Source of the DNA: Owenia fusiformis
Lineage: Eukaryota > Annelida > Polychaeta > Sabellida > Oweniidae
Direction: 5' to 3'
Assembly: GCA_903813345.2 (NCBI GenBank)
Contig: CAIIXF020000001.1
Span: 55,383,885 to 55,447,884, forward strand
Length of the DNA stretch: 64,000 nt
In this document: positions 36,201 through 64,000 of the stretch, one piece after another
Position numbering within the stretch: position 1 is the stretch's first letter
Layout of the letters: every line of letters begins with the position of its first letter
The notes under the pieces: model-generated
The model's input: the letters and a program-made list of their open reading frames with translations, nothing else
The model's database searches: none
Told to the model about the DNA's origin: nothing
Position numbers and translations under genes: made by a program

Positions 36201-39200
36201 TAATACATTCTATGATGTCACAGCTGATATTAGCGCTGACAATCTGTGCTCAGAGACACCAGTTTATGTGAGTATTTTCAGATCTAAAAATTAAATATAA
36301 ACATATACTACTTATTAAATCCAGTCTTTTATTTCACGAGCAAATTATTCATTTTATCAGAAAAGAAATATGGAGAAAACTTTTTTCAACTTTTTTGTTG
36401 ATTTTTTACATCATGCACCATTAAATCATTTGTTTTTACCAGAAAAGAAACTTTGAAAATTACTTTTTATTATGTTTCACTTTTGTGCAAATTATTTTGT
36501 CACAGTTTCACAAGCCAATTTCTTCAGATATTTGATTTTAAGATAATTTATTTCAGGATGTCAATGAGAGTGATCCAGAAGTTGGTGTGTGTGAGTGTAT
36601 CCATGGTTACTGGGGAGAGTCCTGCCAGAATGAGTGCCCAGGTGGAGGTAACAACCCATGTTTCGGACACGGTAATTGTGACAAAACCACAGGGGTATGT
36701 ACATGTATCTCTCGTTTTACTGAGGAAACCGACTGTCTGGAATGTATGCCTGGCTGGACTGGCACTGACTGCTCAATTTCCAGTACCGATCTTATCCTGA
36801 CCGCTGATGGAGACTCCATGGGTGTGGTGTACTACGGAGGTCATTACATGACTTTTGATGGCGCCAGTTACAACTTACCAACTCTAGGCGAGTATGTCTT
36901 ATTTGATACAACCACTGCTGAAGGTGTTCCTCTAAAGGGTCATATCTACAATGTGATTTCTTCAGAAGATGGACTTGGTATTGGATTGGCTGGTTTCTCT
37001 ATGACCATAGGGGAAGTTGAGGTAGCTTTCTATGGTGGTGATAAGGAATCCAATAAGACTGGAGCAACCTGGCTGGATGATAAGCTGACATATGTTGGAT
37101 CACAGAAAGCAATCCCTGGAACAGATGACTTTGTATGGAGACAGGACTCTGCTGGACTCTATGTAGTCACTAATGGTGACTTTGAGGTTACCATCCAGAA
37201 TAGCAGAAGATTCCTCAATGTACAAGTGCTTTCCAAGCCTGCCATATGTTCCATCAGCAAAGGACTACTTGGGAACTGCGATGGCAATATCACAAATGAT
37301 TTCAATTTGCAATCAGGTGAAGAACTCGCATCTGCAACTAATGGCACTTTGACTGATGATGATGTCTACAGTGTCTTTGGACCATCCTGGGTTGTACCTA
37401 GTAATGAATCTAAGTTTGAACAGCCCACCGAGGAAGACATTTTGACATCTACCCCCGGAGGTTTATGTATTTGCTTTGAAGATTCCAATGCAATTTCTGA
37501 TCCTCTATACAGTTTCTCCAACTATGATGTCACAATTGAATTCATCTTTAAGGTGGATGAGTCACAAGTGGGATGTGGAATTCTGCTCTCATACCGAGTT
37601 GATGACGAGTTTACAGTAATGGTATGCGACAATAAGCTCACTACATATTACAACAGTGAAACCAAGACATCAAATGGAATCGATGTTGACTATGGCACAT
37701 GGTACCACTTGGCAATTATCTTGCAAAAAGATGATGGATTCTTGATCTTTTATCTTTATGATGAAGCTGGTGAATACAACTCTGATATCCAGACCTTGAA
37801 TGATGTTCCATACAACATCCTGCAGCCTGGTGGTACCCTAGCCTTAGGCCAGTGGAACCCACCCACAACAGGTAGCGGCAGTAGTGGAATGTATTACTAC
37901 AACTACTTAGGCTGCATTGATGAGTTCCGTATATGGAATGCTCGTCTCTCAGTTTCCACTATTAAGGACAACATCTGGAAGTACATCCCAACAACAACAG
38001 AGGACTTGGCCAACTACTGGAAATTCAATGAGGGCTATAAGGGCTACTCAGAGGATTCTGTGAATAGTGTGTACCTTCACATGAGCAAAAAACCTTGGAG
38101 GCATCCAGAGTATGAGTACACTACATACACCTTCACACTACCTGAATATGAGGAATACAATGTCTATGATGTCATTGATAATGCAGATGATGACTACAAA
38201 GATGAAGTTGAGGCCTTCTGCGCAAGTGTCTTTGGAGCTGAATCTTTTAAGACACTCTGTTCAAAGGTTGACAATGCAACATTCTCTTTCTACCAACAAC
38301 AGTGTGAATACAATGGGGTCCTTTATGGCAATACCTCATACACATTAGAAGTTGCTTACGCCTTTGCAGCTCAATGCCAGATACTTGATACATTCATTGA
38401 GCGCCCAACTTTGCCTCCACCTGTAGAGGCTACTACAGGTATCACTGGGGATGGAACCATCACAACTTATGATGGTACTACATACCCACTTAACACAACT
38501 GGAGAGTTTGTATTCATTAACACTGGTACAATTGATGTGAAAGTCAGAGTTGTACCATGTCCAGAAGCTTCAAGCCCCACTTGTGTTAACCAGGTTTGGT
38601 TAGCTACTGAAAACCATGATGTTGTTATCCATACACCATATTCATCTGGAGGTGATCTAGTTGTGTTTGATGGTGAAGGCAACAGAACTACTCTAACAGG
38701 TACAACTGATTTGGCTGATGATTTCACAGTTACTAAAGTAGGAGGAAATGAGTATCATATCACTGATAATGCAGATCTTACAATTGTTGTCGTGAAGGAT
38801 GACAATGGGTTCCTAGATGTAACTGTTGATACATTTGATACTGTCTGTAGCCGGAATACAAATGATATAGCTGGTACATGTGATGGTGATACAACCAATG
38901 ATCCTGCATCAGGAGATGATGTCACTCATCCAAACTGTACAGGTTGTACTGTAGACCCTAATAGTGAGGATGGCTTTGTTTACACCTACACTACTCCCAC
39001 AGGTGTCACCTATGAAGAACCACAGAACTTCACTGGATCTTGCACATGTGGATATTACCTTGATAACTGCTGCATTCAAGTAGGCACCCCAGGTGGTAAT
39101 GACACCCATGGAACAACAACAATCACAAACGGCACATTCACTACATTTGATGGTGTTGAGTATGATTTGGATGTCAGAGGAGAGTATGAGTTCTATAATG

Positions 39201-42200
39201 GATCTGACACTGATGTATACATCAGGATGACACCATGTGGTCAAGAAACATGTGTTACACAGGTACAGGTTGGTACAGGTGATTCTGATGTTGTTGTCCA
39301 TGCACCTTACACTAATAACTCTGATGTTGTTGTGTTCGATGGTGAGGGCAATGAGCTTGACTTCTCAAGTAGCAATGATTCAACTGTAGCACTTGATAAT
39401 TCAACTACTGTTACTAATACAGATGGTAACACAGTTATTATTACCAACACTGATGATGGCACTGAGACAACTGTTACTGTAAATGATAACGGAGACTTAG
39501 ATGTAGAAATCACCACTCCAACAGACACTTGCTCAGCTGGTGTAACTGGCATGGCAGGATCTTGTGATGGTGATACTGATAATGAGATCCCAGATGGTAA
39601 TGGTGGATATGTTGATGCTGACGATATCACTACTGATGATCTTACCAATATGGCAAATGATAGTAATGTTGGTGGTTCAGGATCTGGATCTGGAAGTGGA
39701 TCTGGATCTGGAAGTGGATCTGGATCTGGATCTGGATCAGGAACAGGATCTGGAGATGATGGTACTAAATTTGTCTATGAATATGAAGATGAAAATGGTA
39801 CAACTTATCATGAACCTGAAGATCTCACACCCACTTGCCCAGCTGGTTACTTTGGTACTGATTGTAGCATTTTCTTAGAGGAAGAATCACCCAACAATGA
39901 TGACAACTCTACAGCTGGTGTTAATCCTGATGGTACCATTACCACATTTGATGGTGTTACATATGACCTTGATCAGCCTGGTGAATTCCCTCTGGTTAAC
40001 ACAACTGATATGAATGTCACTGTTACACAAACTCCATGTGGCGATTCAGTGTGTACTACAGAAACAACTGTAGTGACAGACAATGGTGGAGTCATCATTC
40101 ACACTGGCACTCCACCTCCTTCAACTGGAAATCTTACAGATGGACTCCCACCTGGAACTGGTGGTGGTACAACTGTCACTGATGGTGAAGGAAACCCGGT
40201 CGATGTAACCCCAGGTGGAAGTCACAGTGAGGGTGATTTGACTGTAACCAAGAATGCTGATGGAACTGCATGGATTGTAACCGATGGTTCTGGAAACACA
40301 GTAACAATCACAGATGTTAGTATCATTGATAATTCTGGAACTGTGGTTAATATATCACCAGGTGGAACGACTACAATTGGCGATATGACTGTCACAAGAA
40401 AGGATGAACTTACATATGTAGTAAGTACTACCTCTGGTGATTCAGTTACTGTAACAGTATCCAAGCCTACTGATACAGTTATCACAGATAACGAAGGGAA
40501 TCCTATTGGTACCACACCAGGATCAACAGGCACTGTAGGTGATATGACCATCACTACTGATAGTAATGGTGATACTACAATTACTGATGGATCATCAGGC
40601 ACCACTGTGACAGTCACTGACACAGGTATTACTGATGATGATGGCAATGTTGTTCAGACTCCCCCAGGGAGTGGCACATCTGTTGGAGATGGTGTCACTG
40701 TTACACGAGTGGATGAAGATACAGTTGTTGTCTCTGATGATGATGGCAACGAGGTGACAGTTACAGTTCCTACAACACCTGTGAATGAGACTGTTGTCAC
40801 TGATGGTAAAGGTAATGAGATCCCAATTACACCTGGAGGTGGAGGCGTAACTGTTGGTGATGGTGATACAACAATTGAACAACCAGATGATGATACAACC
40901 ACAATAACAGATAGTGATGGAAACACAATTACCATTACAGATACTAGAATCACAGATAATGATGGTAATGAGATTAACATTACACCTGGTGATGAAACCA
41001 CTGTTGGCAATACAACTATCAAACGAATTGATGAAGACACTTATGTTGTAACTGATGGAGATGGTAATGAGATAATTGTTACTGTTGAAACACCCACTGA
41101 TACTGTCATTACTGATGGTGAAGGCAATGAAGTGGATCTTACTCCAGGAGGTACAGGAACTGTTGGTGATATGACTGTCACAAAAGATGGGGATACAACA
41201 ACTGTGACTGATGGAACTACAACAGTAACTATTACATCAACTGGTGTTACTGATCAAGATGGTAGTCCAGTTGATATCACTCCAGGAGACACTACAACTG
41301 TTGGTGATCTTGATGTGTACAGAGTGGACTCTGATACACATGTCATTACTGATGGATCCGGAAATGATGTAACTGTCACAATTCCATCCACACCCAATAA
41401 ACCAACCTCGACTGGTGAAGAAGTAACTGTAACTGACAGCAATGGTGACCAAATAACTATTCCATCTGGAGGAAGTGAAGATGTAGGTGATATGACTGTT
41501 ACTCGAAATGCTGATGGGTCTTACACTATAACTGATGGCTCCTCAAGTAGTACTGTTAATGTATCAGGAACTGGTATCACAGATGGTACTAATGCTGTTA
41601 ATATTTCACCAGATCAGACAACCCATGTTGGTGATATGGCAATATACAGACTTGATGAGGATAATTATGTGATTACTGATGGCACATCTGGTAGCACAGT
41701 CACAATTAATGTACCACAAACAACAGACACAAACATTGTTGATGGTGATGGTAACCCTGTAGATACTACCCCAGGTGATTCTATTGTTGTTGGTGATTTA
41801 ACAGTCTCTGAAGCTTCGGATGGATCTATCACTGTTACAGATAGTACATCTGATGATTCAGTTACAATCAAGGATACTGGTGTCTTTGGAAATGATGGCA
41901 CAGTTGTAAATGTTTCACCAGGTGAAACAGCTACAGTTGGTGATCTTACTGTCCAACGTATTGATGAAGATACCTATGTCATCACTAGTGGATCTGGAAA
42001 TGATATTACTGTCACTGTTCCAACAACCACTGAGACACATATCATCGATAACGGTGGTAATGTGATTGATCTTACACCAGGAGGAAAAGATACTGTGGGT
42101 GACTTGACAATCACCGAAGGACCTGATGGTAAATCATACACAGTAAAGGATGGATCATCTGGTGTAACTATTATTGTTGATGGTACCGGCGCAAGTGATG

Positions 42201-57200: not shown

Positions 57201-60200
57201 AATCCATTATCAAAGTAACTGGAACTGTCATTACTGGAAATGGCAATGTGATTAACATTACACCAGGAGGAAGTGCCACTGTTGGAGATATGACCATTGC
57301 TCGTTTGGATGAAGACACTTATGTAATATCTGATGCCTCATCTGATGGTGAGGTAACATTCACAGTTACACCACCAATGAGCACAGATAATACTATAACT
57401 GACCAGCAAGGTAACACAATTACACCAAGTTCTGGTGGAAGTGAGACATTGGGTGATTTGACTGTTACTACAAGCAGTGATGGTACAAGTCAAACAGTAA
57501 CAGATGGCTCCTCTGGAACAAGTGTTACGTTCAGTGATACTGGTGTTACAGACAATAATGGAAATGTTATTAATGTATCTCCAGGAGAGAACAAAACTAT
57601 TGGTGATGTGACTATTCACAGAGTAGATGAGGATACTTATGAAATATCTGATGAATCATCTGGTACCGAAATGACAGTTACAGTTCCTACAAACACAAAA
57701 CCAGTAGCAACTGATGGTAGTGGAAATTCCATTGATGTCACACCTGGAGGTGAGGGAGAATCTGTTGGTGATCTGACAGTCTCACAAGGCAACGATGGTA
57801 GTTACACAGTACACGATGGTTCATCTGATCACTCTGTAACAATTACTGGAGATGGAGTTGTTGATGGCAATGGTAATTCAATTGATATGCCTGTCGGGGG
57901 AACTGCAACTCTTGGTGATATAACCATAACAAAGATAGATGAGGACACTTATGTTGTATCTGATGGATCCTCTGGAAGTGAAGTCACTGTGACTGTTCCT
58001 GTAACACCACCTGGATCAGGCTCATATATAACTGATCATGAAGGTAATCCAATTGATCTTGATATAGGAGACAGTACTACTGTTGGTGATTTAACCATTA
58101 CCAAAGTTGATAATGACACACTTGAAGTGACTAATGATGAAACTGGTAGTATTGTTACAGTCTCTGTTGTACCTGGTGATGGTACAGGATCTGAAACTGG
58201 ATCTGGAACAGGATCTGACACTGGGTCTGGAACAGGATCTGGAACTGGATCTGTAACAGGATCTGACACTGGGTCTGGAACAGGATCTGGAACTGGATCT
58301 GGAACAGGATCTGACACTGGATCTGGAACAGGATCTGGAACTGGTAGTACTCTAGAGGTTGACGTAACTGTATCTAATGATGTTTGTGAATCAACTACTT
58401 CTACACTTTCTGGATCTTGTGATGGAAACATCAATAATGAGTTTCAAGACAGTAATGGAAATGATATTCCAATTGATCTTGTCACTGGAGATAACGTTCT
58501 AGAAGCAGCTTCAACAACAAAGGTAAATGATTACTATGATGACTCTGGTGATGATTTCAATGGAAACTCTACACATTCTGTAACATCCTTATCTGGTAAT
58601 AGTTCCATAACTACCTATGATGGTACAACCTTTGATGTGAACACACCTGGTGAATTTGTCCTTGTTAACACTGATACATCTGAGGTAGATGTCAAGGTAA
58701 TTCCATGTGGAGATTCCCTCTGTGTGAGCCAGGTTGCAATTACACCTGGTACAGACACTGCTGGTACTGGCACTGGTGATGAAACAGATGGTACTACATT
58801 TGTTGATAACAATGGCAATGTTATTGATCCTTTATCTGGTCAGAGCATAACTGTAGGGGAAATAACAGTAACCCATAATTCAGATGGCTCATATACTATA
58901 ACTGATTCCTCTTCAGGAAACACAGTTACTGTTACTGATAATGGAATTATTGATAATAATGGCAATGCAGTTAATATCCAATCAGGTTCAAGTGTTACAG
59001 ATGGAGAAATAACAATCACTAGAGTTGATGAAGATACATACAAGGTCTACAAAGAGTTAACTGGAAGTGGAGTCACTGTCACTGTAACATCACCATCTGA
59101 TACAACAGTCACTGACAGTCAAGGAAATGAGGTTGTCCCATCAGGTGGTACCCATACAATTGGAGATATGGATATAACTCAAGGCTCTGATTCTGATACT
59201 ACAACAGTCACTGATAAGACAAGTGGAAGCACTGTAACTGTTACAGATACTGGTATCATTGATGATGAAGGTAATATGGTGAATATTCCAATAGGCGATA
59301 GCACAACTGTTGGAAACATTACTATTGTCCGTATTGATGATGATACATATGTTCTAACAGATGGATCTGGAGAAGAAGTGACAGTTACCATTCCAACAAC
59401 CCCAACAACAGAAACTATTGTAACTGATCACCAAGGTAATAATGTTGATACATCACCCGGCACAAATACAACTGTTGGAGACATGACTATTTCTACACCA
59501 GATGAAGGGGATGCAGTTTCAATTACTGATTCATCATCTGGAAGTACCGTAACAATAACTGATACAAGTATCACTGGAAGTAATGGTAATGTTTTGAATA
59601 TTCCACCAGGTAGTAACAAAACAGATGGTGATATCACTGTTACAAGGATTGATGATGATACTATTGTAGTATCAGATGGATCATCAGGTGGTAATGTTAC
59701 AGTCACAATTCCAACACCTTCTGAAACTGTTGTTACTGATCAACAGGGCAATCCACTTGATCTTGGATCAGGAACCGATGCCACAGTTGGTAATTTCACT
59801 GTGTCTAAAGATGATGACAATTCAATTACTACATCTGATGGATCTGGAAACACAGTCACTGTTACTGATACAGGAGACATAACTGACCAAGATGGTAATG
59901 ACTTAGATCTGTCCTCAGGAGACAATACCATTGTTGGAGGAATTATAGTTACCAAGGTAGACAGTGATACTGTTGTGGTTTCTGATGACTCTGACAATGA
60001 ATTAATCATCACCGTTGTGCCTGATGAAACTACTGGAACATCCGATGGATCTGACTCTGGTGGATCCTCACCAATCACTGACAGCAATGGCAACAGTATC
60101 AACCTCTCAAATGGACAAAGTTCAACAGTTGGTGACTTAACTGTAGCCCAAACTGATGATGGCACTTATGTTATAACAGACAGCTCATCTGGAAATACAG

Positions 60201-63200
60201 TCACTGTTACAGGATCTGTTGTTACTGATAACAATGATAATATTTTATATATCACACCTGGAGGTACTCAGACAACAGCAGATGGTGATTTTACTGTGAA
60301 ACATCCTGGTGATGACACATATGTTGTAACTGCTACTTCTGATGGAAGTAAGATTGAAATCACTGTTCCGTCTACTGCAGTACCAGAAATTGTCCTCTCT
60401 AATCGACAAGGAAATGAAATTGATGTTTCACCAAGTGGTAGTGAGACAATTGGAGACTTGACTGTAAGCCTTTCTGCTGATGGTGAGACATTCACAATAT
60501 CCGATGGATCTTCAGGAGGCAGTATAGGGGTGAGTGGAGAAACAATCACAGGTAGCAATGGTGATGCAATTAGCATTTCTCCTGGTTCAACTACACAAGC
60601 TGATGGTGTGTCTATCAAACGAGTTGATGATGATACTTATGTGGTGTCTACTGGATCGCCTGCAAATGATATCATAGTTACAGTACCTACAACTACTGTT
60701 TCTGGTGTAACTGATCAACAAGGTAATACCATTGATGTATCACAGGGATCTCCTTCCACAGAGGGTGATATAACTGTCACTGAGGTTATACCTGGTACAT
60801 ACAGAGTTGTTGATGGCTCATCTGGAAGCTCAGTTACCATATCAGGAACTGGTGTAACAAGTAGCACTGGCAATCATGTAAATCTTTCACCAGGTGGTAG
60901 TAAACAATTTGGTGATATGACTGTCAGGCAACTTGATTCAGATTCTTATGTGGTATCTGATGGTTCATCTGAAAGTGAGGTCACTATCACTGTACCAGCA
61001 CAACCAGCTGGTACTGTGATAACTAATGATGCAGGAAACCTTATTGGGGTTGCCCCTGGAGTTAATGCATCAGTAGGTGGTATGACTGTGTCTAAGCCAG
61101 ATGGCAACACACATGTATTTACTGACACAAATGGAGATGGAGTTACAATTTCAACTGCACCAGGAACACCTGGAGCTGTTATCACAGATAACAATGGAAA
61201 TAATGTTGACTTATCAGAAGGAGGAAGTACCACAGTTGGTAGTCTAACAATTGGAAAAGATGATGAGACCACAATCACAGTAACAGATGATTCTGATAAT
61301 ACTGTGACTATCACAATTCCCCCTCCAACATCAGACGGCATTACTGTTCACGCTCCTTACACACCTGGTGGTGATATTGTAATATTTGACTCTAATGGAA
61401 ACCCCATCACAACTGATACTGGATCAGGTACTGGAACAGGATCTGAGTCTGGTACAGGATCTGATATCACTGTCACTACTGAAACAACAGAAGATGGTGA
61501 AACAGAGTATCATGTTCATAATCCAGATGGTACTGAAGTTATAATTACGGAAGATGACAATGGGTACTTGAATGTTGAGGTTGTAACACCAAAGACTTCT
61601 TGCAGTGGTAACACTGGAGATCTTGCAGGCTCTTGTGATGGAAACACTTTCAATGACATTGATAGTGACTTGAACTCAGAGGAAGACATTTCTGAGGCTT
61701 GCACAAACTGTTTGGTTGAAGGTGATGAGGATTCTACACCATTTGTGTATACATATGAAACACCAACTGGTGTGACGTATGAGGAACCTCAGAATTTCAA
61801 CGGTTCATGCATTTGTGGATTCTATCTTGACGATTGTTGTGTGACAATAGTAGACACAAATACTAATGATACCCATGCTACAACATCTATAGTAAATGGA
61901 ACATTTACCACATATGATGGTGTTCAGTATGATCTTGATGTCAGAGGAGAGTATGAGTTCTACAACAACAATAATACTAATTCAAGTGTTCATGTTAGAA
62001 TTACTCCATGTGGGGATACTACATGTGTTTCCCAGACACAAGTTAGTACAACTGATTCTGATGTGGTTGTGCATGCACCATACACTAATGATAGTGATGT
62101 TGTTGTATTTGATGGTGAGGGTAACCCCATTGATTTCTCTGGAGATACTTGTACATCAAATTGCACATCTACATCTATTACTAGTGATGATGGTAGTACC
62201 ATTGTTAGTCTTACAACAGGGAAGGAAGCAACAGTAAATGATGTTACTATTTCTCGTACTGGTGAAGATACATATGAGGTAACTGATCCATCAACTGGAA
62301 ATGGATTTACTATAACTACAACAATAACATCTGATGGAATTACAAGCACAGATATTACAGATACAGATGGCAATTCTGTTGACCTCTCTCCTGGAAGTTC
62401 TGAGACAATTGATGGTGTCACTCTGACTCAGGTTGATGATGATACCTATACTGTATCTTCTGGATCATCTGACAGTGAAATAACAATCAATGTCCCAACA
62501 CCTACATCAACACAGGAAGGCACTGGAAGCACAACTACTATCACTGATGGAAATGGTAATCCTGTCAATACCTCACCTGGACAAAGTATAACTACTGGAG
62601 ATGTAACTGTTTCTCAACCTACAGATGGCACAATTGTGATCAATGATGGGTCCTCTGATAATAGTTCCATAACAATAACAGATTCTGGAATAACTGGTAG
62701 TGATGGCAATGTTATCAATATTTCACCAGGGAGCAACACCACTTCTGGCAATTTGACAATTGTGAGGATTGATGAAGACACATATGTTGTGGTTGATAGT
62801 GATGGAAATGAGGTTACCGTCACTGTAACATCTCCCACCGAAACTGTCATTACTGATAGCAATGGTAACAAAGTTAATGTCTCTGGTGAATCTGCTGCAA
62901 CAGTCGGAACATTGACAGTATCTCAAAATGCTGATGATACAATCTCAGTAACTGATAGTGGTACTGGCACAACTATTACAGTAACACCAACAGGCCTTAC
63001 AGACAATGATGGCAATAGTGTCAATCTGTCACCAGGGACTACTGCAGTAATCAGTGGTCAAACTGTAATAGAATTGATGAGGACACACTAGTCATTGTTG
63101 ATAGCACCTCTGAGAATGAGGTGACAATCACAATACCTGGACCTTCAGATCCTGTTTTGACTGATGAAAATGGAGATCCAGTCACTATTCCAACAGGTGG

Positions 63201-64000
63201 TTCAACCAATGTTGGCAATCTGGAGGTTGGTGAAACTGAAGATGGTGATGGATACACAATTGGAGATGGAGAATCTGGAACAACTGTTAATATCACTGGA
63301 GATGGTATTATTGATGGCGATGGAAATATTATTGACCTTTCAAATGGAGAAAGTACACAAATTGGTGATAATACTAACATCACAAGAGTGGATGATGACA
63401 CTGTTAAAGTAACTGATGTATCAACAGGAAGTGAAGTAACAGTAACAGTTCCAGAAACACCACCTGTTGATACAGGAAGTACATCTTCAATTGTTGACAA
63501 TAATGGCACTGTAGTTGATCTCAAAAAGGGAGAGAATACTACAATTGGAGATTTCGATATCACACAAGGTAAGGACAGTACCTCAATTACTGATAACTCT
63601 TCAGACAGTACAATTGTCATATCAGGAACTGGTATAACTGATGATGATGACAATATTATCAACATTTTACCAGGAGACAGTGTAACTGTAGGTGATATGA
63701 ATATTACAAGGTTGAATGAGGAGGAATATGAGGTAACAGAGGGATCTGATGGAAGCACTGTTACTGTTACAGTGACATCACCAACTGAAACTGTCATCAC
63801 TGACCAGCATGGAGATATTATTGACGTCTCACCTGGATCTAGTGATACAGTTGGTGGTTTGACCATTTCACAGGCTGATGATGGCACTATTACAATAACA
63901 GATGATGATACTGGAAGCAGTGTCACTGTTTCAGAGACTGGACTCATTGATGATAATAATAATGTGATCAATATTCCTATTGGTGGTTCAACAACAGTTG
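43..64000 (+). CDS. Giant multidomain extracellular protein gene, 43 exons, partial at both ends
   Basis: One gene model explains the window. Coding exons are joined by 42 GT...AG introns whose phases agree at every junction, giving about 17,790 codons here. Order of regions: at least 17 glycine-rich beta-helix-like units, about 50 EGF-like modules, laminin-type EGFs, a YFGY.N domain, a VWD domain with LamG-like and C8-like segments, then degenerate VWD units interleaved with Asp/Thr/Ser/Gly-rich arrays. EGF, laminin-EGF, VWD and LamG domains are extracellular in known families, so the product is probably secreted or at the cell surface; its start, signal peptide and end lie outside. I do not recognise a named gene. 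Matrix, adhesive or mucus-gel function is inference. Reading is interrupted once, by an apparent one-base deletion near 63070. Two adjacent genes at the exon 42/43 junction is a weaker alternative, since that junction splices in phase. Confidence 0.85.
571..805 (+). CDS. Exon 2: first glycine-rich core (unit 1, part 1)
   Basis: TTCATTTTCAG acceptor and GTAAGT donor; phase 0 in, phase 1 out. It encodes HGGQGGRNN, then GIYYGNMLEPTDFGS, then GGGRIQIEA...TVDG. The LEPT..GS motif and the strand after it recur in almost every unit. The intron after TVDG lies at the same place as the intron after LNVEG at 9134. Confidence 0.8.
1025..1156 (+). CDS. Exon 3: glycine-rich core (unit 1, part 2)
   Basis: GTTGCAG acceptor and GTCAGT donor; phase 1 on both sides. 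It encodes TISVDGADG, then GGASGGSIYL and FHGKGIIRSHGGKG. This is the VDG.I...GADG / GGSI.I / GHG.I...GG strand ladder typical of the units. Confidence 0.8.
1352..1563 (+). CDS. Exon 4: glycine-rich core end (unit 1, part 3)
   Basis: TTCCCAG acceptor and GTATGC donor; phase 1 in, phase 0 out. It encodes GGGSGGRIAIYY, FQGSHTTYGGKG, then GAAGTVYIEKEDP and LIVDNGEP. GAAGTVYIE closes the glycine-rich core in nearly all units; VDN starts the following linker. Confidence 0.8.
1750..2407 (+). CDS. Exon 5: strand-rich linker between units 1 and 2
   Basis: TCCTACAG acceptor and GTAAGA donor; phase 0 in, phase 1 out; about 219 residues. The sequence has regular hydrophobic strands separated by short turns, with little glycine clustering until the final DGPG. 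The repeated pattern (..I.GAITG.DEFTI.., GTLNARKIVI, VEEKGIIDLD) suggests a continuous beta-helix or similar solenoid. No catalytic motif is visible. Confidence 0.75.
2704..2902 (+). CDS. Exon 6: glycine-rich core (unit 2, part 1)
   Basis: AAATTCCAG acceptor and GTATGT donor; phase 1 in, phase 2 out. It encodes ATHGGEGGRGYG, then FYEPTEVGSGTPGN and GGGAIKIM...NVYGVITA. It carries the EPT..GSG motif in its full form. The last codon (Asn) is split across the intron. Confidence 0.8.
3177..3259 (+). CDS. Exon 7: glycine-rich core (unit 2, part 2)
   Basis: A short 83-nt exon with acceptor TTCATCTAG and donor GTAAGC; phase 2 in, phase 1 out. It encodes GKTATCDCGGAAGGSIWI and ASENILVTG. Two cysteines (CDC) are unusual for this part of the protein. 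The GGSIWI strand matches other units and fixes the frame. Confidence 0.75.
3541..3737 (+). CDS. Exon 8: glycine-rich core end (unit 2, part 3)
   Basis: TATAATTCAG acceptor and GTAAGA donor; phase 1 in, phase 0 out. It encodes SITANGGNGYGSY, a run of glycines, LIALYYKYGG, GTVTTYGG and KGAAGTVYISVNDP, which completes unit 2. Confidence 0.8.
4081..8110 (+). CDS. Exon 9: 4.0-kb exon with glycine-rich units 3, 4 and 5
   Basis: GTGATTTCAG acceptor and GTATGT donor; phase 0 in, phase 1 out; 1,343 codons without a break. It opens with AIVDNNEVS, continuing the linker after unit 2. An RGDS tetrapeptide lies at 4207-4218. Three cores follow: about 4930-5430, 6100-6560 and 7215-7790, each with GPG.G, a GSYGG or HGG run, a GGGSGGSI-type strand and a closing G.I.I/GTVF-type strand. 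GDGTG (near 5584) and GDYTG (near 6720) are early forms of the GD.TG signature. Unlike units 1 and 2, no intron interrupts these cores, which suggests intron loss or duplication from an intronless copy. Probably a rigid extracellular stalk; no enzyme motif seen. Confidence 0.85.
8268..8614 (+). CDS. Exon 10: linker leading into unit 6
   Basis: TTTGTAG acceptor and GTAAGT donor; phase 1 in, phase 0 out; about 116 residues. It encodes LITNVRDLIIAPNMTTVF, a form of the LTGV..L.I..GA...F motif, then strand-rich sequence, and GAKIDMVGGGYGSAQGEG at the start of the next glycine-rich core. Confidence 0.8.
8930..9134 (+). CDS. Exon 11: glycine-rich core (unit 6, part 1)
   Basis: TGCTTTTAG acceptor and GTAAGT donor; phase 0 in, phase 1 out. 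It encodes VSGVGTGGGYGSEGG, DPASMGSGGGNSN, GGAGGGLLTLKV and LNVEG. The exon itself begins with GTAAGT, so the acceptor is directly followed by a perfect donor-like sequence (see findings). The protein pattern supports including these bases in the exon. Confidence 0.8.
9439..9619 (+). CDS. Exon 12: glycine-rich core (unit 6, part 2)
   Basis: CTTGCCAG acceptor and GTGAGT donor; phase 1 in, phase 2 out. It encodes TINVNGADGTNNGG, GGCVLVEAVKFTGHG, ISANGGYGSGNGGGG and GGRIRITLDD: the VNGADG / GHG.I.ANGG / GGRI ladder. Confidence 0.8.
9894..10126 (+). CDS. Exon 13: end of unit 6 and start of linker
   Basis: TATTTCCAG acceptor and GTATGA donor; phase 2 in, phase 1 out. It encodes YDFSGTITVFGGGND, then AGPGTVYTIEG, then LFIIGDTEG and a DSDFMYDYMEIKG stretch. 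The last matches the EFDE.EI.G motif in later linkers. Confidence 0.8.
10294..14306 (+). CDS. Exon 14: 4.0-kb exon with glycine-rich units 7, 8 and 9
   Basis: TGACTTTCAG acceptor and GTAAGT donor; phase 1 in, phase 0 out; 1,337 full codons. Cores lie at about 10840-11320, 12010-12490 and 13210-13740. Each has EPT-like or YQPV/YRPE spacing, GGGSGGS, GHG/GKG strands and GPGSV.- or GGGTAYV-type closings. Linkers carry the signature GDKTGWMYVRDQQ, GDGTGLLRVRKNQ, GDRTGLFQLHNTH and GDRTGRLHFNARH in order. These are followed by a D.GAEL..P motif and then an EIGGMLTGA..L-type motif. No intron interrupts three successive units. Function unknown; extended beta-solenoid is inferred from strand periodicity. 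Confidence 0.85.
14514..14682 (+). CDS. Exon 15: linker into unit 10
   Basis: ATTTTACAG acceptor and GTAAGT donor; phase 0 in, phase 1 out. It encodes DIKYEASMEAIAFEV, then LALLDSNGGGLDDL, GAGHASYGGN. GAGHAS.GG is the entry motif of the glycine-rich core. Confidence 0.78.
14836..15054 (+). CDS. Exon 16: glycine-rich core (unit 10, part 1)
   Basis: TTTGCAG acceptor and GTATGT donor; phase 1 on both sides. It encodes NGGGAGGIAYGSLYEPT, EGSTGGGTNGGKGGGKIKI, then FLLDGLVEVDGNDG and GGGSGGSVWIKAG. It carries the canonical YGSLYEPT motif. Confidence 0.8.
15302..15666 (+). CDS. Exon 17: glycine-rich core (unit 10, part 2) and linker
   Basis: TATTTCAG acceptor and GTATGT donor; phase 1 in, phase 0 out; about 121 residues. 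It encodes DMRGHGDISSSGGKG, GGGAGGRISLHT, GGMMAYGAPG, GGPGSIFVED, then a charged strand-rich linker ending ALHFDTVLLEKM. Confidence 0.8.
15855..16215 (+). CDS. Exon 18: linker with GDKTG signature
   Basis: ATATTTCAG acceptor and GTAACT donor; phase 0 in, phase 1 out; about 120 residues. It carries ILGDKTGFLHPQDGD, VDLGSEIWLSQDF, then HIAGIYNLTLSEETEMHIG. These correspond to the GD.TG, D.G.EI..P and G.L.GV..L.I..G motifs of the longer units in exon 21. Confidence 0.8.
16471..16648 (+). CDS. Exon 19: linker
   Basis: TGTATTCCAG acceptor and GTAGGG donor; phase 1 in, phase 2 out; about 59 residues. It encodes VTLEAESRMVHNSNLKL, RYASEFMAKTILIEAG and IHLEGEAKLDV, i.e. the L.VKY.G...M...I...GD..LEG pattern immediately before a glycine-rich core. 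Confidence 0.75.
16850..16971 (+). CDS. Exon 20: start of glycine-rich unit 11
   Basis: TGATTCCAG acceptor and GTCAGT donor; phase 2 in, phase 1 out; about 40 residues. It encodes GPAAEQGLGAGD and GVGAGHGGYGGGAD, the GPGAG..HGG.GG entry into the core. Confidence 0.75.
17152..23361 (+). CDS. Exon 21: 6.2-kb exon with glycine-rich units 11-15
   Basis: TTGTTATAG acceptor and GTAAGT donor; phase 1 on both sides; 2,069 full codons. It holds the most regular repeats of the region. Cores start near 17190, 18411, 19683, 20931 and 22158 (GSGGG... motif); the last four starts are 1272, 1248 and 1227 nt apart, so one unit is 409-424 residues. A unit reads: EFDEME.TG..L...HP; F.GDRTGLFHLR.NQ; V..S...TEAPCSF.VD.GAEI..P; G.LTG...L.IE.GA......STAQ.A; ENGTY..VTE.GNFSFST; L..KYQG.L.MN; VESEG...LDGKG..AE.GPGA; HGG.GG; YGS.Y...E.GSGGGNG...GG.GGG; G.DGTGSNAGGGSGG; N.TGHG.I.V.GG; GGGG.GGR..VH; Y.GGE; GAAGT.Y.E. 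The near-invariant APCSF cysteine has no obvious partner within a unit. Solenoid structure is inferred. Confidence 0.88.
23569..23705 (+). CDS. Exon 22: glycine-rich core (unit 16, part 1)
   Basis: TTTCACAG acceptor and GTAAGG donor; phase 1 in, phase 0 out; about 45 residues. It encodes IYDTLYEPTEPGSGGGGAY and GGAAIMIDAAL, with the EPTE.GSGGG motif. Confidence 0.8.
23991..24159 (+). CDS. Exon 23: glycine-rich core (unit 16, part 2)
   Basis: TCTTATCTAG acceptor and GTAAGG donor; phase 0 in, phase 1 out; about 56 residues. It encodes KMVVDGTVTSAGVIG, GAGGAGGTIMITTVHIRGHG and IQANGGEG, i.e. the VDG.V...G / GG.I.I / GHG.IQANGG ladder. Confidence 0.8.
24469..24773 (+). CDS. Exon 24: glycine-rich core end (unit 16, part 3)
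   Basis: GTGTTGTTAG acceptor and GTAAGT donor; phase 1 in, phase 0 out; about 101 residues. It encodes SGGGAGGRVAIHL, FLGVAEALGGTG, HGSCGTVYVQQT, a charged linker, and YIFDQFHISGHACVQLD, the EFDE..I.G motif with an extra cysteine. Confidence 0.8.
25013..26585 (+). CDS. Exon 25: last glycine-rich unit (17) fused to the first EGF-like modules
   Basis: TATTGTTTCAG acceptor and GTAATT donor; phase 0 in, phase 1 out; 524 codons. The first two thirds hold the linker signature LSGDGTGLLEIQNGQ, VDVQGGLNGIKDLVI, then a core with GAGCQNKGGSGGGHGG, VGSGGGNCENN, GGGSGGSVWIDG and GRGSLAANGGTG. A cysteine cluster (GCGGCCNYCYG, about 25894-25923) interrupts the core's final GGGGGRI segment. From about 26046 EGF-like modules begin: CSGHGTW...CECDSGYMGSYCE, CSGNGECN...CDCDAGYTGYNC and four more, the sixth completed in exon 26. 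One exon thus joins two architectures without an intron between them. Confidence 0.87.
26767..27356 (+). CDS. Exon 26: EGF-like modules 6-12
   Basis: CATTCCTAG acceptor and GTAAGT donor; phase 1 in, phase 0 out; about 196 residues. It encodes DCPGEPDCMGRGTCD, CMNCQGDWYGPACN, CVCDQICWHGDGC, ECTNHGNCNPDGNC, a GWHGTYC end, then CSSQGECN, CECFAGWTGVYC, CMDRGTCD and CLDCHADWMGPACD. The six-cysteine EGF spacing is clear. The MGRGTCD and MDRGTCD modules are four modules apart. Confidence 0.87.
27490..27643 (+). CDS. Exon 27: EGF-like modules 12-14
   Basis: TGCTCTCCAG acceptor and GTATGT donor; phase 0 in, phase 1 out; about 51 residues. It encodes GWAGVGCDSECSDHG, ICVCDYVTGWKGDLCDVPG and LDCSGRG. 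The exon splits EGF modules rather than bounding them. Confidence 0.82.
27950..28076 (+). CDS. Exon 28: EGF-like modules 14-15
   Basis: TATCATTAG acceptor and GTGAGT donor; phase 1 in, phase 2 out; about 42 residues. It encodes CESSTHTCTCEPGWQNIGC, DCPGTPDCNDHGFCNATM. The final Asn codon is completed in exon 29. Confidence 0.82.
28396..29081 (+). CDS. Exon 29: EGF-like modules 15-22
   Basis: TAATTTTAG acceptor and GTAAGA donor; phase 2 in, phase 1 out; about 229 residues. It holds nearly two full four-module cycles. Successive openers are HEC..ECANGH, ECSEHGS, DCTGNGECNAATHEC, DCSGQGTCD, ECTHGEQDPPNSGIC, ECSDHGSCVDGEC and DCSLHGVCNSATNEC. DCTGNG and DCSLHG are 384 nt (128 residues) apart. 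An RGD tripeptide lies in the loop GWRGDVC at 28595-28603. Confidence 0.88.
29419..29525 (+). CDS. Exon 30: EGF-like modules 22-23
   Basis: TATTTTAG acceptor and GTAAGT donor; phase 1 in, phase 0 out; about 35 residues. It encodes WTGAACDIPDCPDGCGGNG, YCNGTDRDLPVCECLE. Confidence 0.82.
29782..29959 (+). CDS. Exon 31: EGF-like modules 23-25
   Basis: ATTTTTAG acceptor and GTAAGA donor; phase 0 in, phase 1 out; about 59 residues. It encodes GWFDLDCQSRCEYGTW, QYCECESCHAGEFCDLEC and SGHGTCVNGTCDCEREYV. NGT is a possible N-glycosylation site. Confidence 0.82.
30250..30420 (+). CDS. Exon 32: EGF-like modules 25-27
   Basis: GATTTCTAG acceptor and GTGAGA donor; phase 1 on both sides; about 57 residues. 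It encodes SWAGPKCEETGCPG, CSGHGECNSLLGECTC, YPGWQSDACDVPKCPGDPEC. It begins a run of nine exons flanked only by phase-1 introns. Confidence 0.83.
30646..32166 (+). CDS. Exon 33: EGF-like modules 27-42
   Basis: TCATTTTAG acceptor and GTATGT donor; phase 1 on both sides; about 507 residues. It carries roughly four full cycles of the four-EGF super-repeat without an intron. The type-4 openers lie at about 30915 (DCMGRGTCNQATGEC), 31323 (DCTGRGSCNGATGEC), 31707 (DCSGHGSCILATQQC) and 32109 (CSGHGTCNKASRTC); spacings are 408, 384 and 402 nt. RGD occurs in two type-3 modules: NRGDLC at 31278-31286 and GRGDYC at 31659-31667. The DP/GTQTPMDSGICACD form marks type-2 modules. Confidence 0.88.
32391..32546 (+). 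CDS. Exon 34: EGF-like modules 42-44
   Basis: CTCATCTTAG acceptor and GTAAGT donor; phase 1 on both sides; about 52 residues. It encodes WYGEACSVPDCPGEPDC, NGNGICDASSTSDQPKC, ICGMGWMGLGCNIACVNG. Confidence 0.83.
32791..32991 (+). CDS. Exon 35: EGF-like modules 44-45, with an enlarged loop
   Basis: TCTATTTTAG acceptor and GTAAGA donor; phase 1 on both sides; about 67 residues. It encodes CACFDCFTGPDCNSTC and ADHGSC, then an unusually long loop of about 30 residues rich in V, S, T and D before TCSCDSGWWG. Several N-x-S/T sites lie in this exon (NST, NES, NAS, NTT). Confidence 0.82.
33337..33507 (+). CDS. Exon 36: EGF-like modules 45-47
   Basis: CTTTTCAG acceptor and GTAAGA donor; phase 1 on both sides; about 57 residues. 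It encodes IECTIRGCPGIGSSC, SDHGYCTLADQSCDCDAG, WKGDGCHIPDCPN and DCDGRG. Confidence 0.83.
33803..34054 (+). CDS. Exon 37: EGF-like modules 47-49
   Basis: TTTTTTTAG acceptor and GTAAGT donor; phase 1 on both sides; about 84 residues. It encodes YCDGNQYDPPRCTNCTLSMG, HGEENPPFSALCECDSCY, ECSNVGNCTNGACECDYGF and KGDVCELINCPG: modules of types 1, 2 and 3 in order. Confidence 0.84.
34403..34537 (+). CDS. Exon 38: EGF-like modules 50-51
   Basis: TGATTACAG acceptor and GTAAGT donor; phase 1 on both sides; about 45 residues. It encodes EPDCSTYGTCLRKNN, LCVCNPGFQGDDC and FICPGTPYCSDRG. Confidence 0.83.
34746..34934 (+). CDS. Exon 39: laminin-type EGF-like modules
   Basis: CTACCAG acceptor and GTAAGT donor; phase 1 on both sides; about 63 residues. 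It encodes CALPDG...CVCDHGFDGDACDRC, VDKFVGDDCERCQDGYIGYN. The C-x-x-C pairing after the EGF turn (CDRC, CERC) is the laminin-EGF pattern rather than the plain EGF pattern used upstream. Confidence 0.8.
35190..35303 (+). CDS. Exon 40: laminin-type EGF-like module
   Basis: ATTTTCCAG acceptor and GTAAGC donor; phase 1 on both sides; about 38 residues. It encodes CICYDDITNGHWVG, CDQCEHGFNLPTCIDCHP, with the CDQC..GF...C..C spacing of laminin-EGF modules. It closes the EGF region. Confidence 0.8.
35625..35916 (+). CDS. Exon 41: YFGY.N domain, first part
   Basis: TTCTTTTAG acceptor and GTAAGT donor; phase 1 in, phase 2 out; about 97 residues. After a short Cys segment (HHCTIPCINN) comes FNCVVQQDDGKYVVYFGYDN, then NVYVDAGPDNMLNG and LFRPGQHKYAF. 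The order YxxYFGYxN / V.V..G..N / F.PG / VSW.L (the last in exon 42) resembles a small beta-rich domain seen in varied extracellular proteins. I do not know its accepted name. Assignment is by motif memory only. Confidence 0.7.
36150..36267 (+). CDS. Exon 42: YFGY.N domain, second part
   Basis: CTTTCAG acceptor and GTGAGT donor; phase 2 in, phase 0 out; about 39 residues. It encodes ALSNATVSWSLAYKASN, then DVTADISADNLCSETPVY. VSWSL followed by a T/A-rich strand completes the domain begun in exon 41. NAT is a possible N-glycosylation site. Confidence 0.72.
36557..64000 (+). CDS. Exon 43: giant exon (at least 27.4 kb) with VWD units and VTD repeat arrays
   Basis: TTATTTCAG acceptor; phase 0 in; no donor is needed before the window ends. 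The frame is open from 36557 to 63090, about 8,840 codons, then meets TAG at 63089-63091. The repeat pattern resumes in another frame at about 63070 and stays open to 64000, so one base appears to be missing. Order: EGF-like modules; VWD (36786-37399); LamG-like (about 37459-38090); C8-like cysteines (about 38210-38400); then A, B and C units with VTD arrays, listed separately. Composition is dominated by T, D, G, S, V and I, with few Lys or Arg, so this part is strongly acidic and rich in possible O- and N-glycosylation sites. No transmembrane segment is visible. The 3' end of the exon is outside the window. Confidence 0.88.
36587..36785 (+). other. EGF-like modules before the VWD domain
   Basis: CECIHGYWGESCQNECPGG, then PCFGHGNCDKTTGVCTC and CLECMPGWTGTDC. 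The spacing is EGF/laminin-EGF-like and links the upstream EGF region to the VWD region within the giant exon. Confidence 0.8.
36786..37399 (+). other. VWD (von Willebrand factor type D) domain
   Basis: About 205 residues. The N-terminal motif GGHYMTFDGASYNL matches the HY.TFDG..Y signature of VWD domains. The C-terminal motif ICSISKGLLGNCDGNITNDF matches GLCGN.DG...NDF. Between them are beta strands such as DDFVWRQDSAGLYVV and FLNVQVLS. In mucins, VWF and zonadhesin such domains act in disulfide-linked assembly; here the usual CGLC-type cysteine pair is reduced to a single Cys. This is the best-preserved VWD in the window. Confidence 0.85.
37459..38090 (+). other. LamG/pentraxin-like (concanavalin fold) domain
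   Basis: About 210 residues. Strands YDVTIEFIFKVDE, then DYGTWYHLAIILQKDDGFLI, FYLYDEAGEYN, LALGQWNPP, then GCIDEFRIWNARLS and ANYWKFNEGYKGY. The order W.HLA / L.LG / G.IDE.RIWN.......L..YW.FNEG is characteristic of LamG-like jelly-roll domains. These usually bind glycans or proteins, sometimes with calcium; the ligand here is unknown. Confidence 0.82.
38210..38400 (+). other. C8-like cysteine segment
   Basis: EAFCASVFGAESFKTLCSKV, then FSFYQQQCEYNGV and VAYAFAAQCQILD. The pattern C...........C..V....F...C.......A.A..C.... resembles the C8 domain that normally follows VWD. It has fewer cysteines than a full C8, so the call is tentative. Its place after the LamG-like domain suggests that LamG was inserted between VWD and C8. 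Confidence 0.55.
38438..39118 (+). other. A1: degenerate VWD unit with EGF stub
   Basis: Starts TITTYDGTTYPLNTTGEFVF (VWD opening). Continues with VVPCPE...CVNQVWLA, VVIHTPYSSGGDLVVFDGEGN, DFTVTKVGGNEYHITD and LDVTV, then DIAGTCDGDTTND (VWD closing motif). It ends FVYTYTTPTGVTYEEP and a CTCGYYLDNCC stub like the end of an EGF module. Intact copy, not split by a VTD array. Confidence 0.8.
39119..39919 (+). other. B1: degenerate VWD unit with Ser-Gly run and EGF stub
   Basis: Starts TFTTFDGVEYDLDVRGEYEF, then IRMTPCGQETCVTQ, VVVHAPYTNNSDVVVFDG, TDTCSAGVTGMAGSCDGD and IPDGNGGYVDADD. A long SG repeat (39673-39755) separates this from FVYEYEDENGTTYHEP and the stub CPAGYFGTDCS. Intact copy. Confidence 0.8.
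39673..39755 (+). repeat. Ser-Gly minisatellite in B1
   Basis: Tandem GGATCTGGATCTGGAAGT-like units of 6-18 bp encode a long run of SG dipeptides, flanked by acidic residues (ANDSN before, DDG after). Serglycin-like SG runs near acidic residues are typical glycosaminoglycan attachment regions; that role is inferred. The B2 copy at 44390-44457 is shorter and B3 has nearly lost it, so length is variable. Confidence 0.85.
39920..40168 (+). other. C1 N-terminal half: start of a degenerate VWD unit
   Basis: TITTFDGVTYDLDQPGEFPL, then CGDSVCTTETTVVTDNGG and IIHTG. The unit stops here and the first VTD array follows; its closing GSCDGN motif appears only at 42920, about 2.75 kb later. Confidence 0.78.
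40169..42817 (+). repeat. VTD array 1
   Basis: About 880 residues of half-units of about 50 residues, in pairs of about 100. Half-unit types alternate: VTD..GN.VD.TPGG..TVGD.T and ITDNDGN..NI.PG..T.VG followed by TR.DEDTYVVTDGSG. Typical ends are VTVTVP or VTVTVETP, then the next VTD. Acidic, no cysteine seen. DxDGN turns could bind calcium (inference). Confidence 0.85.
42818..42919 (+). repeat. Gly/Ser/Asp linker after array 1
   Basis: HGDGDSGDGSGSGGSGGSGG followed by more S, G, D and N codons. A low-complexity hinge between the array and the second half of unit C1. Similar linkers follow arrays 2 and 4. Confidence 0.8.
42920..43153 (+). other. C1 C-terminal half: end of the split VWD unit
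   Basis: VQVTVPNDQCDASTSTLTGS with CDGNLDNEFQDSDGND following, then PIDLV, an acidic stretch and NSTHSIT. GSCDGN...NEF is the VWD closing motif missing from the C1 N-terminal half upstream. Confidence 0.78.
43154..43837 (+). other. A2: degenerate VWD unit with EGF stub
   Basis: VTNYDGSTYTLTSPGEYSL, CGEATCVNQVWLS, VVFHAPYSAAGHIVVFDAAG, DLAGTCDGNKFND, FVYTYTTPTGVVYEEP and CTCGYYVEDCC. Collinear with A1 and not split. Confidence 0.8.
43838..44614 (+). other. B2: degenerate VWD unit with short Ser-Gly run and EGF stub
   Basis: TFTTYDGVQYDIEIRGEYEF, IRMTPCGQKTCVTQ, IIVHAPYTPGGDLVAFDADA, LSGSCDDNTNNEIPDGNGGY, a short SG run (44390-44457), FVYSYTDENGTTHKEP and CPAGFYGADCS. Collinear with B1. Confidence 0.8.
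44615..44800 (+). other. C2 N-terminal half: start of a split VWD unit
   Basis: VTTFDGVNYPVGTYGEFTL, CGNTVCTTGTSVITENGG and IIHTG, collinear with C1 N-terminal half. A Ser/Thr-Gly linker follows, then VTD array 2. Confidence 0.78.
44801..44889 (+). repeat. Thr/Ser-Gly minisatellite before array 2
   Basis: GGAACTGGATCTGGAAGT-like tandem units encode GTGTESGTGSGSGTGSGSG. The same kind of sequence lies after array 4, so SG/TG minisatellites mark several array edges. Confidence 0.82.
44900..48280 (+). repeat. VTD array 2
   Basis: About 1,127 residues of alternating VTD half-units: VSITDQSGNDINP, VTDQQGNVLDLAAG, ITRLDEDTFVV and many more. Around 46446-46700 there is a variant with TYITDHEGNPIDLLPGESE and an acidic spacer DDSDTDGDSDDDG. 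The same HEGNPI variant recurs near the end of arrays 1 and 4. Confidence 0.85.
48281..48376 (+). repeat. Gly/Ser/Thr linker after array 2
   Basis: GSGTGTGDNTSTGGSTGDST followed by more of the same type. A low-complexity hinge before the second half of unit C2, in the same position as the linkers after arrays 1 and 4. Confidence 0.8.
48377..48610 (+). other. C2 C-terminal half: end of the split VWD unit
   Basis: IQIDVTVPNDECADSSNTLT, then GSCDGNLDNEFQDSDGND and PIDLVTKDDAA, ending NSTHSVT. Closely similar to the C1 and C3 C-terminal halves. Confidence 0.78.
48611..48889 (+). other. A3 N-terminal half and acidic linker
   Basis: VTNYDGTEIDLDTPGEYVI, then CGDSTCVNQVSIST. The unit then breaks off into an Asp-rich linker (DDTTDDNTDDNTGDGGDD, about 48775-48889) and VTD array 3. 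Its continuation, the VVFHAPYS strand, is at 54347. Confidence 0.78.
48890..54318 (+). repeat. VTD array 3, the longest
   Basis: About 1,810 residues, roughly 18 paired units, with the array inserted inside unit A3 (between CVNQ and HAPYS strands). Internal gly-ser-rich spacers occur, e.g. SGGSGGSDGSGGSGGSSG near 52676-52745. An RGD tripeptide (VTRGDITITR) is at 51314-51322. One half-unit near 50280-50340 is divergent, with a lone Cys (DELCGIMITMTNTGF). Confidence 0.86.
54347..54847 (+). other. A3 C-terminal half
   Basis: VVFHAPYSTNGPLVVFLPNG resumes exactly where the A3 N-terminal half stopped. Then IAGSCDGNKYND, FVYTYVTPTGVVYEEP and CVCGFYADDCC. The join across array 3 rebuilds a unit collinear with A1 and A2. 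Confidence 0.78.
54848..55591 (+). other. B3: degenerate VWD unit, Ser-Gly run mostly lost
   Basis: TFTTYDGVQYELEVRGEYEY, IRMTPCGQKTCVTQ, VVIHAPYTHGSDSVVFDGDG, GMAGSCDGDTDNEIPDGNGG. Where B1 has a long SG run, B3 has only GGSGSESGSSDSDDD (about 55396-55440). Then FVYEYTDEDGTTHKEP and CPSGFYGADCS. Confidence 0.8.
55592..55821 (+). other. C3 N-terminal half
   Basis: TITTFDGVEYNITKPGEYSL, CGDSVCTTGTSITTDNGG and IIHTG, then a short GTGNTGDD linker into array 4. The closing half of this unit lies at 58348. Confidence 0.78.
55822..58170 (+). repeat. VTD array 4
   Basis: About 783 residues in paired units; neighbouring VTD starts near 56450 and 56757 are about 306 nt apart (102 residues). Contains the usual VGDMTVT, TR.DEDTYV, DGSSGSEVTVTVP motifs and ends with the HEGNPIDLD variant also seen near the end of array 1. 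Confidence 0.85.
58171..58347 (+). repeat. Thr/Ser-Gly minisatellite after array 4
   Basis: Tandem 12-bp units (GGATCTGGAACA, GGATCTGACACT, GGATCTGGAACT and close variants) arranged in higher-order blocks of about 48 bp. Encodes GTGSETGSGTGSDTGSGTGS-type repeat. Near-identical copies imply recent expansion and likely length polymorphism. Confidence 0.88.
58348..58582 (+). other. C3 C-terminal half
   Basis: LEVDVTVSNDVCESTTSTLS, then GSCDGNINNEFQDSNGND and PIDLVTGDN, ending NSTHSVT. It completes unit C3, split by array 4. Confidence 0.78.
58583..58792 (+). other. A4 N-terminal half
   Basis: ITTYDGTTFDVNTPGEFVL, CGDSLCVSQVAITPG, then a short GTGTGDETDG linker. As in A3, the unit stops before its HAPY strand and a VTD array follows. 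Confidence 0.78.
58793..61333 (+). repeat. VTD array 5
   Basis: About 847 residues of paired VTD half-units lying inside unit A4, at the same internal point as array 3 in A3. Later half-units (about 60400-61300) are more divergent, e.g. VLSNRQGNEIDVSPSG and VTDQQGNTIDVSQGSP. Confidence 0.85.
61337..61885 (+). other. A4 C-terminal half
   Basis: ITVHAPYTPGGDIVIFDSNG resumes unit A4. A TG/SG insertion (about 61416-61465) follows, then EYHVHNPDGTEVIITEDDNG, DLAGSCDGNTFND, FVYTYETPTGVTYEEP and CICGFYLDDCC. Confidence 0.78.
61886..62167 (+). other. B4 N-terminal half
   Basis: TFTTYDGVQYDLDVRGEYEF, VRITPCGDTTCVSQ, VVVHAPYTNDSDVVVFDG, then a small Cys pair (CTSNC) and VTD sequence. This is the first B unit to be split by a VTD array; its closing half should lie beyond 64000. 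Confidence 0.76.
62168..64000 (+). repeat. VTD array 6, running off the window and containing the frameshift
   Basis: Paired VTD half-units continue to the last base. They read in the exon frame to about 63069 (VNLSPGTTAVISGQTVI) and then, one base out, from RIDEDTLVIVDSTSENE at about 63070 to the end. The second segment has no stop in about 930 nt and keeps every repeat motif, so it is coding in origin. Confidence 0.82.
63062..63091 (+). other. Apparent one-base frameshift and premature TAG
   Basis: The exon frame runs into TAG at 63089-63091 after VIELMRTH, which fits no repeat. Reading from 63070 one frame over gives RIDEDTLVIVD, a standard VTD motif. One base seems to be missing near 63068-63072. 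Sequencing or assembly error, or a recent mutation, would each explain it; the sequence alone cannot decide. Confidence 0.8.

Follow-up and report, generated by a model that had tools for sequence, protein, structure and literature searches.

How long can a single coding exon become in an animal gene, and how would it grow? This question is raised by a stretch of Owenia fusiformis DNA, 64,000 nucleotides long (C1:55383885-55447884), which is called the window here. The original prediction was that positions 36557 to 64000 belong to one coding exon of at least 27.4 kb. The sequence searched amounts to 498 Mb in 525 contigs, and 59 kb of downstream genome sequence was added to the window. Positions in this extension are given as window-equivalents, that is, window coordinates continued past 64000. 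The exon and its features lie on the + strand.

The longest open frame in the window runs from 36542 to 63088 on the + strand (26,547 nt, 8,849 codons) and is ended by a stop codon at 63089-63091. An acceptor, TTATTTCAG/GAT, is located exactly at 36557, so the predicted start of the exon stands. It closes a short phase 0 intron of 289 nt (36268-36556, GTGAGT...TTATTTCAG). By eye, the exon upstream has its phase 0 end at 36267, where GTGAGT follows.

The predicted single uninterrupted frame does not stand, as it passes over the stop at 63089. At about 63,070 the repeat motif goes on one base out of frame, so that beyond 63091 only the next frame is open. There the repeat array is carried on (63092-64000), in a frame open from 63019 to 67032. 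Further frames follow downstream at 67014-70277, 70249-76104, 76103-80314, 80305-81612, 81611-82495, 82368-83726, 83618-85039, and finally 84918-106322. The donor ATTCAG/GTAAGA after window-equivalent 106271 cuts the last of these frames and would close the exon. The extension that had been suggested for finding the 3' end thus reaches a probable one. The exon-like stretch from 36557 to 106271, between splice-site-like boundaries, measures 69,715 nt (genome C1:55420441-55490155), and 36557-64000 is its in-window part. The predicted minimum of 27.4 kb was too small: the exon would be about 69.7 kb long if nine frame shifts along it are assembly errors. After an intron of 152 nt, the next exon starts at 106424, following TTTTATCAG, where a VWD motif carries on in phase 0.

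The gene continues on both sides. Its final coding exon lies in a frame of 9.15 kb (108806-117958) with an acceptor before 108847, and ends the protein. This exon (window-equivalent 108847-117958) is itself 9.1 kb long and carries LamG_3 and EGF cassettes, a putative membrane span and a cytoplasmic tail. Read by eye, the hydrophobic span is followed by KKK and then by a tail some 340 residues long. Further large open frames of the same gene lie upstream, at 4075-8202 (4.1 kb), 10287-14321 (4.0 kb), and 17061-23369 (6.3 kb). They are Gly-rich and repeating by eye, and no Pfam match at E 0.01 was found in any of the three. Two 10 kb pieces 5' of the window still contain open frames with Gly-rich motifs that by eye resemble those at the window start. 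The start of the gene is therefore probably further upstream. A short way downstream, the same strand carries another open frame (window-equivalent 120959-122443, 1,485 nt). It has a hydrophobic stretch near its start and, judged by eye, may encode a type II membrane enzyme.

The original prediction also held that the interval is not random open sequence and that its domains and repeats are in coherent order throughout. Both statements agree with the present results. The base composition of the exon predicts one stop per 14.7 codons, or about 602 in the first 8,849 codons. None is seen, which rules out random open sequence. Across 36542-63088 the other two + frames contain 489 and 1,315 stops. 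Likewise, the VWD architecture is orderly across the exon.

The exon contains about 290 copies of a beta unit of approximately 50 residues and about 28 VWD domains, plus EGF and LamG_3. The VWD near the exon start (36827-37318; PF00094 stretch 96-259; genome match C1:55420711-55421202) is followed by a LamG-like cassette that reaches about 38.4 kb, as judged by blastp to the other cassettes of the gene. The match of the unit model to this first VWD (1.5 bits) is not convincing. Two ordinary VWDs with one core unit each come next, at 38447-38908 and at 39125-39592, and the structure of the latter was modelled. They are followed by an expanded VWD (39941-42997), which consists of an N half, 17 units, a Gly/Ser linker and a C half. 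Ordinary VWDs with weak unit matches are found at 43163-43615 (7.0-7.2 bits) and 43844-44308 (6.8-6.9 bits). Expanded VWDs with 21 units (44636-48457) and with 35 units in two runs (48635-54616) precede another ordinary VWD at 54854-55318. Three more expanded VWDs complete the window. The first (55619-58429) has 15 units, and the second (58610-61645) has 16 units, including the four-unit block used for modelling (59414-60013). The third (61907-64000 in the window) has 23 units in total, and its C half lies at about 65887, past the window.

A nearly perfect 48-bp tandem repeat is located at 58180-58344, in the VWD with 15 units. It consists of 3.4 copies with 95% matches, encodes a Gly/Ser/Thr linker, and is likely to show allelic length variation.

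The PF00094 cut-off of 22.9 is passed in three of five pieces (81.8, 28.5, and 27.8 bits), and three of six further pieces score 31.1, 60.3, and 48.2 bits. Genome-wide, 10 of the 78 PF00094 matches fall within the giant exon. The motif CGLCG is typical of VWD domains and is present in two VWDs from other genes of the same genome. In the exon it is replaced by G[ST]CD in all 11 aligned VWDs. Other Pfam matches to short stretches were taken as chance. These are MPI_cupin_dom, Serglycin, which is under its cut-off, and Peptidase_U32_C, which is found in both sets of pieces, although in one piece it scores 29.2 bits and so clears its cut-off of 28.2.

The repeat unit was described by a profile of 48 positions, which gave 293 raw units and 290 after overlap trimming. 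VWD starts and ends were taken from regular-expression matches, with one false start inside an array (57806). By this means 28 VWD C-terminal halves are found in the exon. Fifteen units stand singly before a C half, and the other 275 form ten arrays of 17, 21, 35, 15, 16, 23, 5, 5, 50, and 88 units. Nine of the ten arrays are placed between the N half and the C half of a VWD. The tenth, at 88614-102216 with 88 units, directly follows a complete VWD and is not inside one.

The first unit model was iterated on all segments, so that only a model built from the arrays tests the unit against VWD independently. This array-only profile was built from 184 units in 46 blocks. It was compared with every C half that is not the end of an array (19 in all), together with the 150 residues preceding each. 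In 14 of these 19 ordinary VWDs the best match is nearly full length and falls at one place (residues 44-125 of 162), although several of the 14 accepted matches are weak, at 6.8-8.8 bits. In the other five the match is partial or absent. When each sequence was shuffled, at most 10 of 1,000 shuffles reached the real score in 15 of the 19. Seven of the 19, at 14.4-48.7 bits, score higher than any of the 19,000 shuffles, whose maximum is 13.0 bits. A smaller control of 550 shuffles, with a best score of 4.6 bits, was too favourable, since larger controls reached 11.7 and 13.0 bits. In that smaller run one VWD also had a second, short match of 6.2 bits at residues 1-17, above the shuffles of that run. 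In a subset of 11 VWDs, drawn from 12 start-end pairs after one that straddled two loci was dropped, 10 match the array-only model. For two VWDs from other genes, no match to this model was reported in either.

An amplified VWD core is the best reading of the repeat unit. Since the unit model matches 14 of 19 ordinary VWDs at one place, and nine of ten arrays lie within VWDs, the exon appears to have grown mainly by amplification of the VWD core. The identity between units depends on their distance. It is 0.462 at lag 2 and 0.476 at lag 4, compared with 0.396 at lag 1 and 0.394 at lag 3, and little even-odd difference is seen beyond lag 4. The greater likeness of units two or four places apart suggests that the arrays grew in part two units at a time.

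Predicted structures are consistent with this reading. The model of an ordinary VWD (pLDDT 85.0, pTM 0.83) has its best PDB matches in FCGBP D10 and MUC2, at TM 0.75. The model of the four-unit block is all beta, with a pLDDT of 94.5. With VIA-align, VWF and mucin D assemblies fill its eight best rows. Three MUC2 rows give Z 6.7-6.8 over 84 residues at 3.0 A, where a Z under 8 can mean no more than a common arrangement, and the other five extend across several domains with an rmsd of 22-24 A. The top Foldseek matches of the same model are BamB-like propellers, but among the best 50 rows the TM is at most 0.20, and such an identity for the unit was set aside.

Neighbouring units (spacings of 120-210 nt) are 156 nt apart on average. 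These spacings are multiples of three in 250 of 257 cases, and each of the seven exceptions is next to a frame-shift site. For pairs of units that share 60-70% of their amino acids, codon positions 1, 2, and 3 mismatch at rates of 0.284, 0.205, and 0.517 (421 overlapping and non-independent pairs drawn from 263 near-full units), and the divergence at four-fold sites is 0.558. This pattern, together with the four-fold divergence, indicates that the repeats are old and have been kept, and that selection on the protein is visible.

Codon-position GC was calculated for 463 segments of 100 codons, and 291 hand-picked non-coding segments served as the control. The values are under the control 95th percentile (0.160) in 46 of the 463 segments and at or below 0.05 in 13. 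The low values concentrate at 37.0-38.4 and 102.4-105.9 kb, which are VWD, LamG_3, and EGF cassettes; Pfam places LamG_3 and EGF in 103-106 kb. These cassettes match each other, 71-73 kb, and the last exon (blastp, 61-1,137 columns). Both stretches are thus largely covered by homology to elsewhere in the gene, and the linkers between domains are without such cover. As read from the sequence, the tiling of the exon by VWD domains, units of about 50 residues, EGF, and LamG_3 leaves little room for introns.

There are nine frame shifts in the 69,715 nt, each of one base modulo three. Four are of the missing-base type and five of the extra-base type. Each is placed to within some tens of bases, and its size is known only modulo three. 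The first one, of the missing-base type, lies at 63040-63091, with its exact place uncertain; the stop in the old frame (63089-63091) is at the end of this interval. All nine fall within about 63.07-85.0 kb and none in the other 47.8 kb, so that 36.6-63.0 and 85.0-106.3 kb are free of shifts. The chance that nine random shifts would all fall in that 31% of the exon is about 3e-5, for an interval picked post hoc. When 36557-106271 is read frame by frame, there are no stops in 23,223 codons. Programmed frameshifting was set aside because the shifts have both signs and no common motif is visible by eye. The nine shifts are best taken as probable residual indels in a less accurate stretch of the assembly, with real lesions as the other possibility.

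The published Owenia fusiformis genome has 505.8 Mb and 12 chromosome-scale scaffolds, and it was assembled from PacBio reads that were polished once with Arrow and then with Racon (PMC9977687). Searching the genome for the unit gives lower bounds. A DNA search with 61800-63900 returned at least 18 matches, all 18 inside the exon and none outside it. When one four-unit block was used as a protein query, 140 candidates were scored and at least 109 matched, every one of the 109 in the exon. When the exon is compared with itself, only four matches reach at least 90% identity, the longest of 69 nt, and the twelve longest self-matches are 62-68% identical. Repeats as different as this should not be confused in a long-read assembly. 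A recent repeat expansion or an unresolved haplotype copy was rejected, as no second locus was found and long near-identical repeats are absent.

Two other observations concern the assembly. Contig C58, which is not one of C1-C12, has dense fn3 matches over about 60 kb (1.8-61.4 kb), with open frames of up to 1,770 residues, and looks like a titin-like muscle gene. A search of the assembly for COX1 reported no match, though weak or split matches could be missed; the mitochondrial genome may thus be absent from it.

Taken together, the window interval probably forms the beginning of one internal coding exon, about 69.7 kb long, in a gene that would encode a giant single-pass membrane protein, with the nine shifts as assembly indels. 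It is unlikely that the shifts are real. In that case the protein would end at 63091 after 26.5 kb of coding sequence, or the allele or gene would be decaying, and the rest would not be translated from this start. The nine shifts and the stop at 63089 are indeed present in the assembly, and the genome searches found no second copy for comparison. However, the shifts have both signs and are confined to 22 of 70 kb, while an end of translation at 63 kb should spread later lesions over all of the downstream sequence. The 21.3 kb between 85.0 kb and the donor contain no shift, and neither does the last exon of 9.1 kb, where a putative membrane span and a tail are still encoded. The lack of nonsense codons also speaks against decay. 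This is weak evidence beside nine shifts, because only about 3.2% of point changes in the exon codons would create a stop. Stronger evidence comes from the 30 kb that stay open and coding downstream, near the end of which the putative membrane span lies.

The mature exon would be much shorter, or split into several, if the stretch hid stop-free introns with a length divisible by three or included alternatively spliced parts. Gene-finders are reported to insert spurious in-frame introns in repeat genes, which were removed by hand for silk genes (PMC9693786), so the reverse error is possible too. The multiple-of-three spacings, broken only beside the shifts, and the tiling at the protein level make such hidden introns quite improbable. 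Much of the remainder lies under VWD, EGF, and LamG homology, whereas the linkers do not. It is less probable still that the length itself is an artefact, produced by a repeat expansion or a false join in the assembly. The locus is repetitive at the protein level, and 63-85 kb looks less accurate than the rest. Nevertheless, the units are old and diverged (0.56 at four-fold sites for 60-70% identity), the longest self-matches are different enough to be separated by long reads, and the order of VWD domains is kept from one end of the exon to the other. A very large coding exon thus has good support and remains the preferred reading, as a real and remarkable exon, on the condition that the nine shifts are assembly errors.

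A mechanism for its growth can be proposed on these terms. The VWD core inside an intron-free exon would have duplicated repeatedly, at least partly in steps of two units (approximately 100 residues or 300 bp). Because duplication within an intron-free exon adds coding length and no introns, the exon would become ever longer. In the animal the frame would be intact, the nine shifts being residual indels of the assembly. Short flanking introns allow splicing by intron definition, and the giant exon may be spliced through recognition of its own short neighbours of 289 and 152 nt. Somewhat more tentatively, although still as the favoured view, the result would be a functional and uninterrupted coding exon of 69.7 kb, formed by amplification of the VWD core and the longest in any animal, possibly in any eukaryote. 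It would encode a fibre of tandem beta modules in a membrane-anchored protein of more than 26,000 residues.

The exon product is rich in acidic residues. It contains 11.7% Asp and 5.1% Glu (16.8% together), compared with 1.3% Lys and 0.8% Arg (2.1% together). Thr makes up 16.7%, and there are 391 N-glycosylation sequons. A count of 174 D-x-[DNQ]-G-[ND] motifs hints at possible calcium binding. An acidic, beta-rich and sequon-rich protein of this type may form a long surface coat or a mucus-like brush, held by a C-terminal membrane anchor. Its predicted features would suit a hydrated surface coat, a mucus-like brush, or attachment to a cuticle or tube.

Several known proteins are related in part. 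VWF, MUC2, MUC5AC, and FCGBP have the VWD fold in common with the exon, as indicated by the VWD profile matches and by the TM of 0.75 to FCGBP and MUC2. They differ in that the aligned VWDs of the exon lack CGLCG, its VWD core is amplified, and its protein has a putative membrane span. Gel-forming mucins and VWF are secreted proteins that have no membrane span, whereas the present protein has a putative one near its C-terminus. They also have C8 and TIL domains after VWD. Neither appears in the Pfam listings (E up to 0.001, 0.01, and 0.01), from scans that covered the exon apart from 64.0-70.2, 76.1-85.0, and 93.0-103.0 kb and may filter weak matches. Transmembrane VWD mucins of the MUC4 type combine NIDO and AMOP with VWD and EGF. 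No NIDO or AMOP is among the listed Pfam hits either, from a scan of the gene outside its start, the small upstream exons, and parts of the exon.

Human titin likewise joins a giant exon to a giant protein. Its exon encodes Ig/FN3 domains, in contrast to the VWD-derived units found here. The longest titin exon, exon 327, is 17,106 bp (PMC9845391), in agreement with the original figure of about 17.1 kb, and is a quarter of the present length. Among animals, the caddisfly gene for heavy-chain silk fibroin also has a single, repetitive and very long coding exon, exon 2, of up to 28,008 bp (PMC12576367). That gene has two exons and silk motifs. The present exon, at 69.7 kb, is internal with coding exons on both sides, and it consists of diverged beta units together with VWD, EGF, and LamG. 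Given the published caddisfly exon, 27.4 kb would not be a record. The original ranking among the largest known exons therefore needs qualification: 27.4 kb matches 28,008 bp and does not exceed it, whereas 69.7 kb does. At roughly 70 kb the exon appears to be about two and a half times as long as the longest published coding exon found. The titles and abstract openings of the literature searched name no longer coding exon, nor the present gene.

Automatic gene models probably break or miss genes of this kind, above all when one-base assembly errors are present. Provided that the frame is intact, coding exons could in practice reach about 70 kb, compared with about 28 kb for the longest published one found, and the gene would be a natural test of splicing, RNA surveillance, and translation at such length. 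For instance, a premature stop in the giant exon would sit tens of kilobases from the next junction. The exon would also represent a route to giant proteins unlike the shuffling of domains by exons, in which part of a domain is amplified within one domain and one exon.
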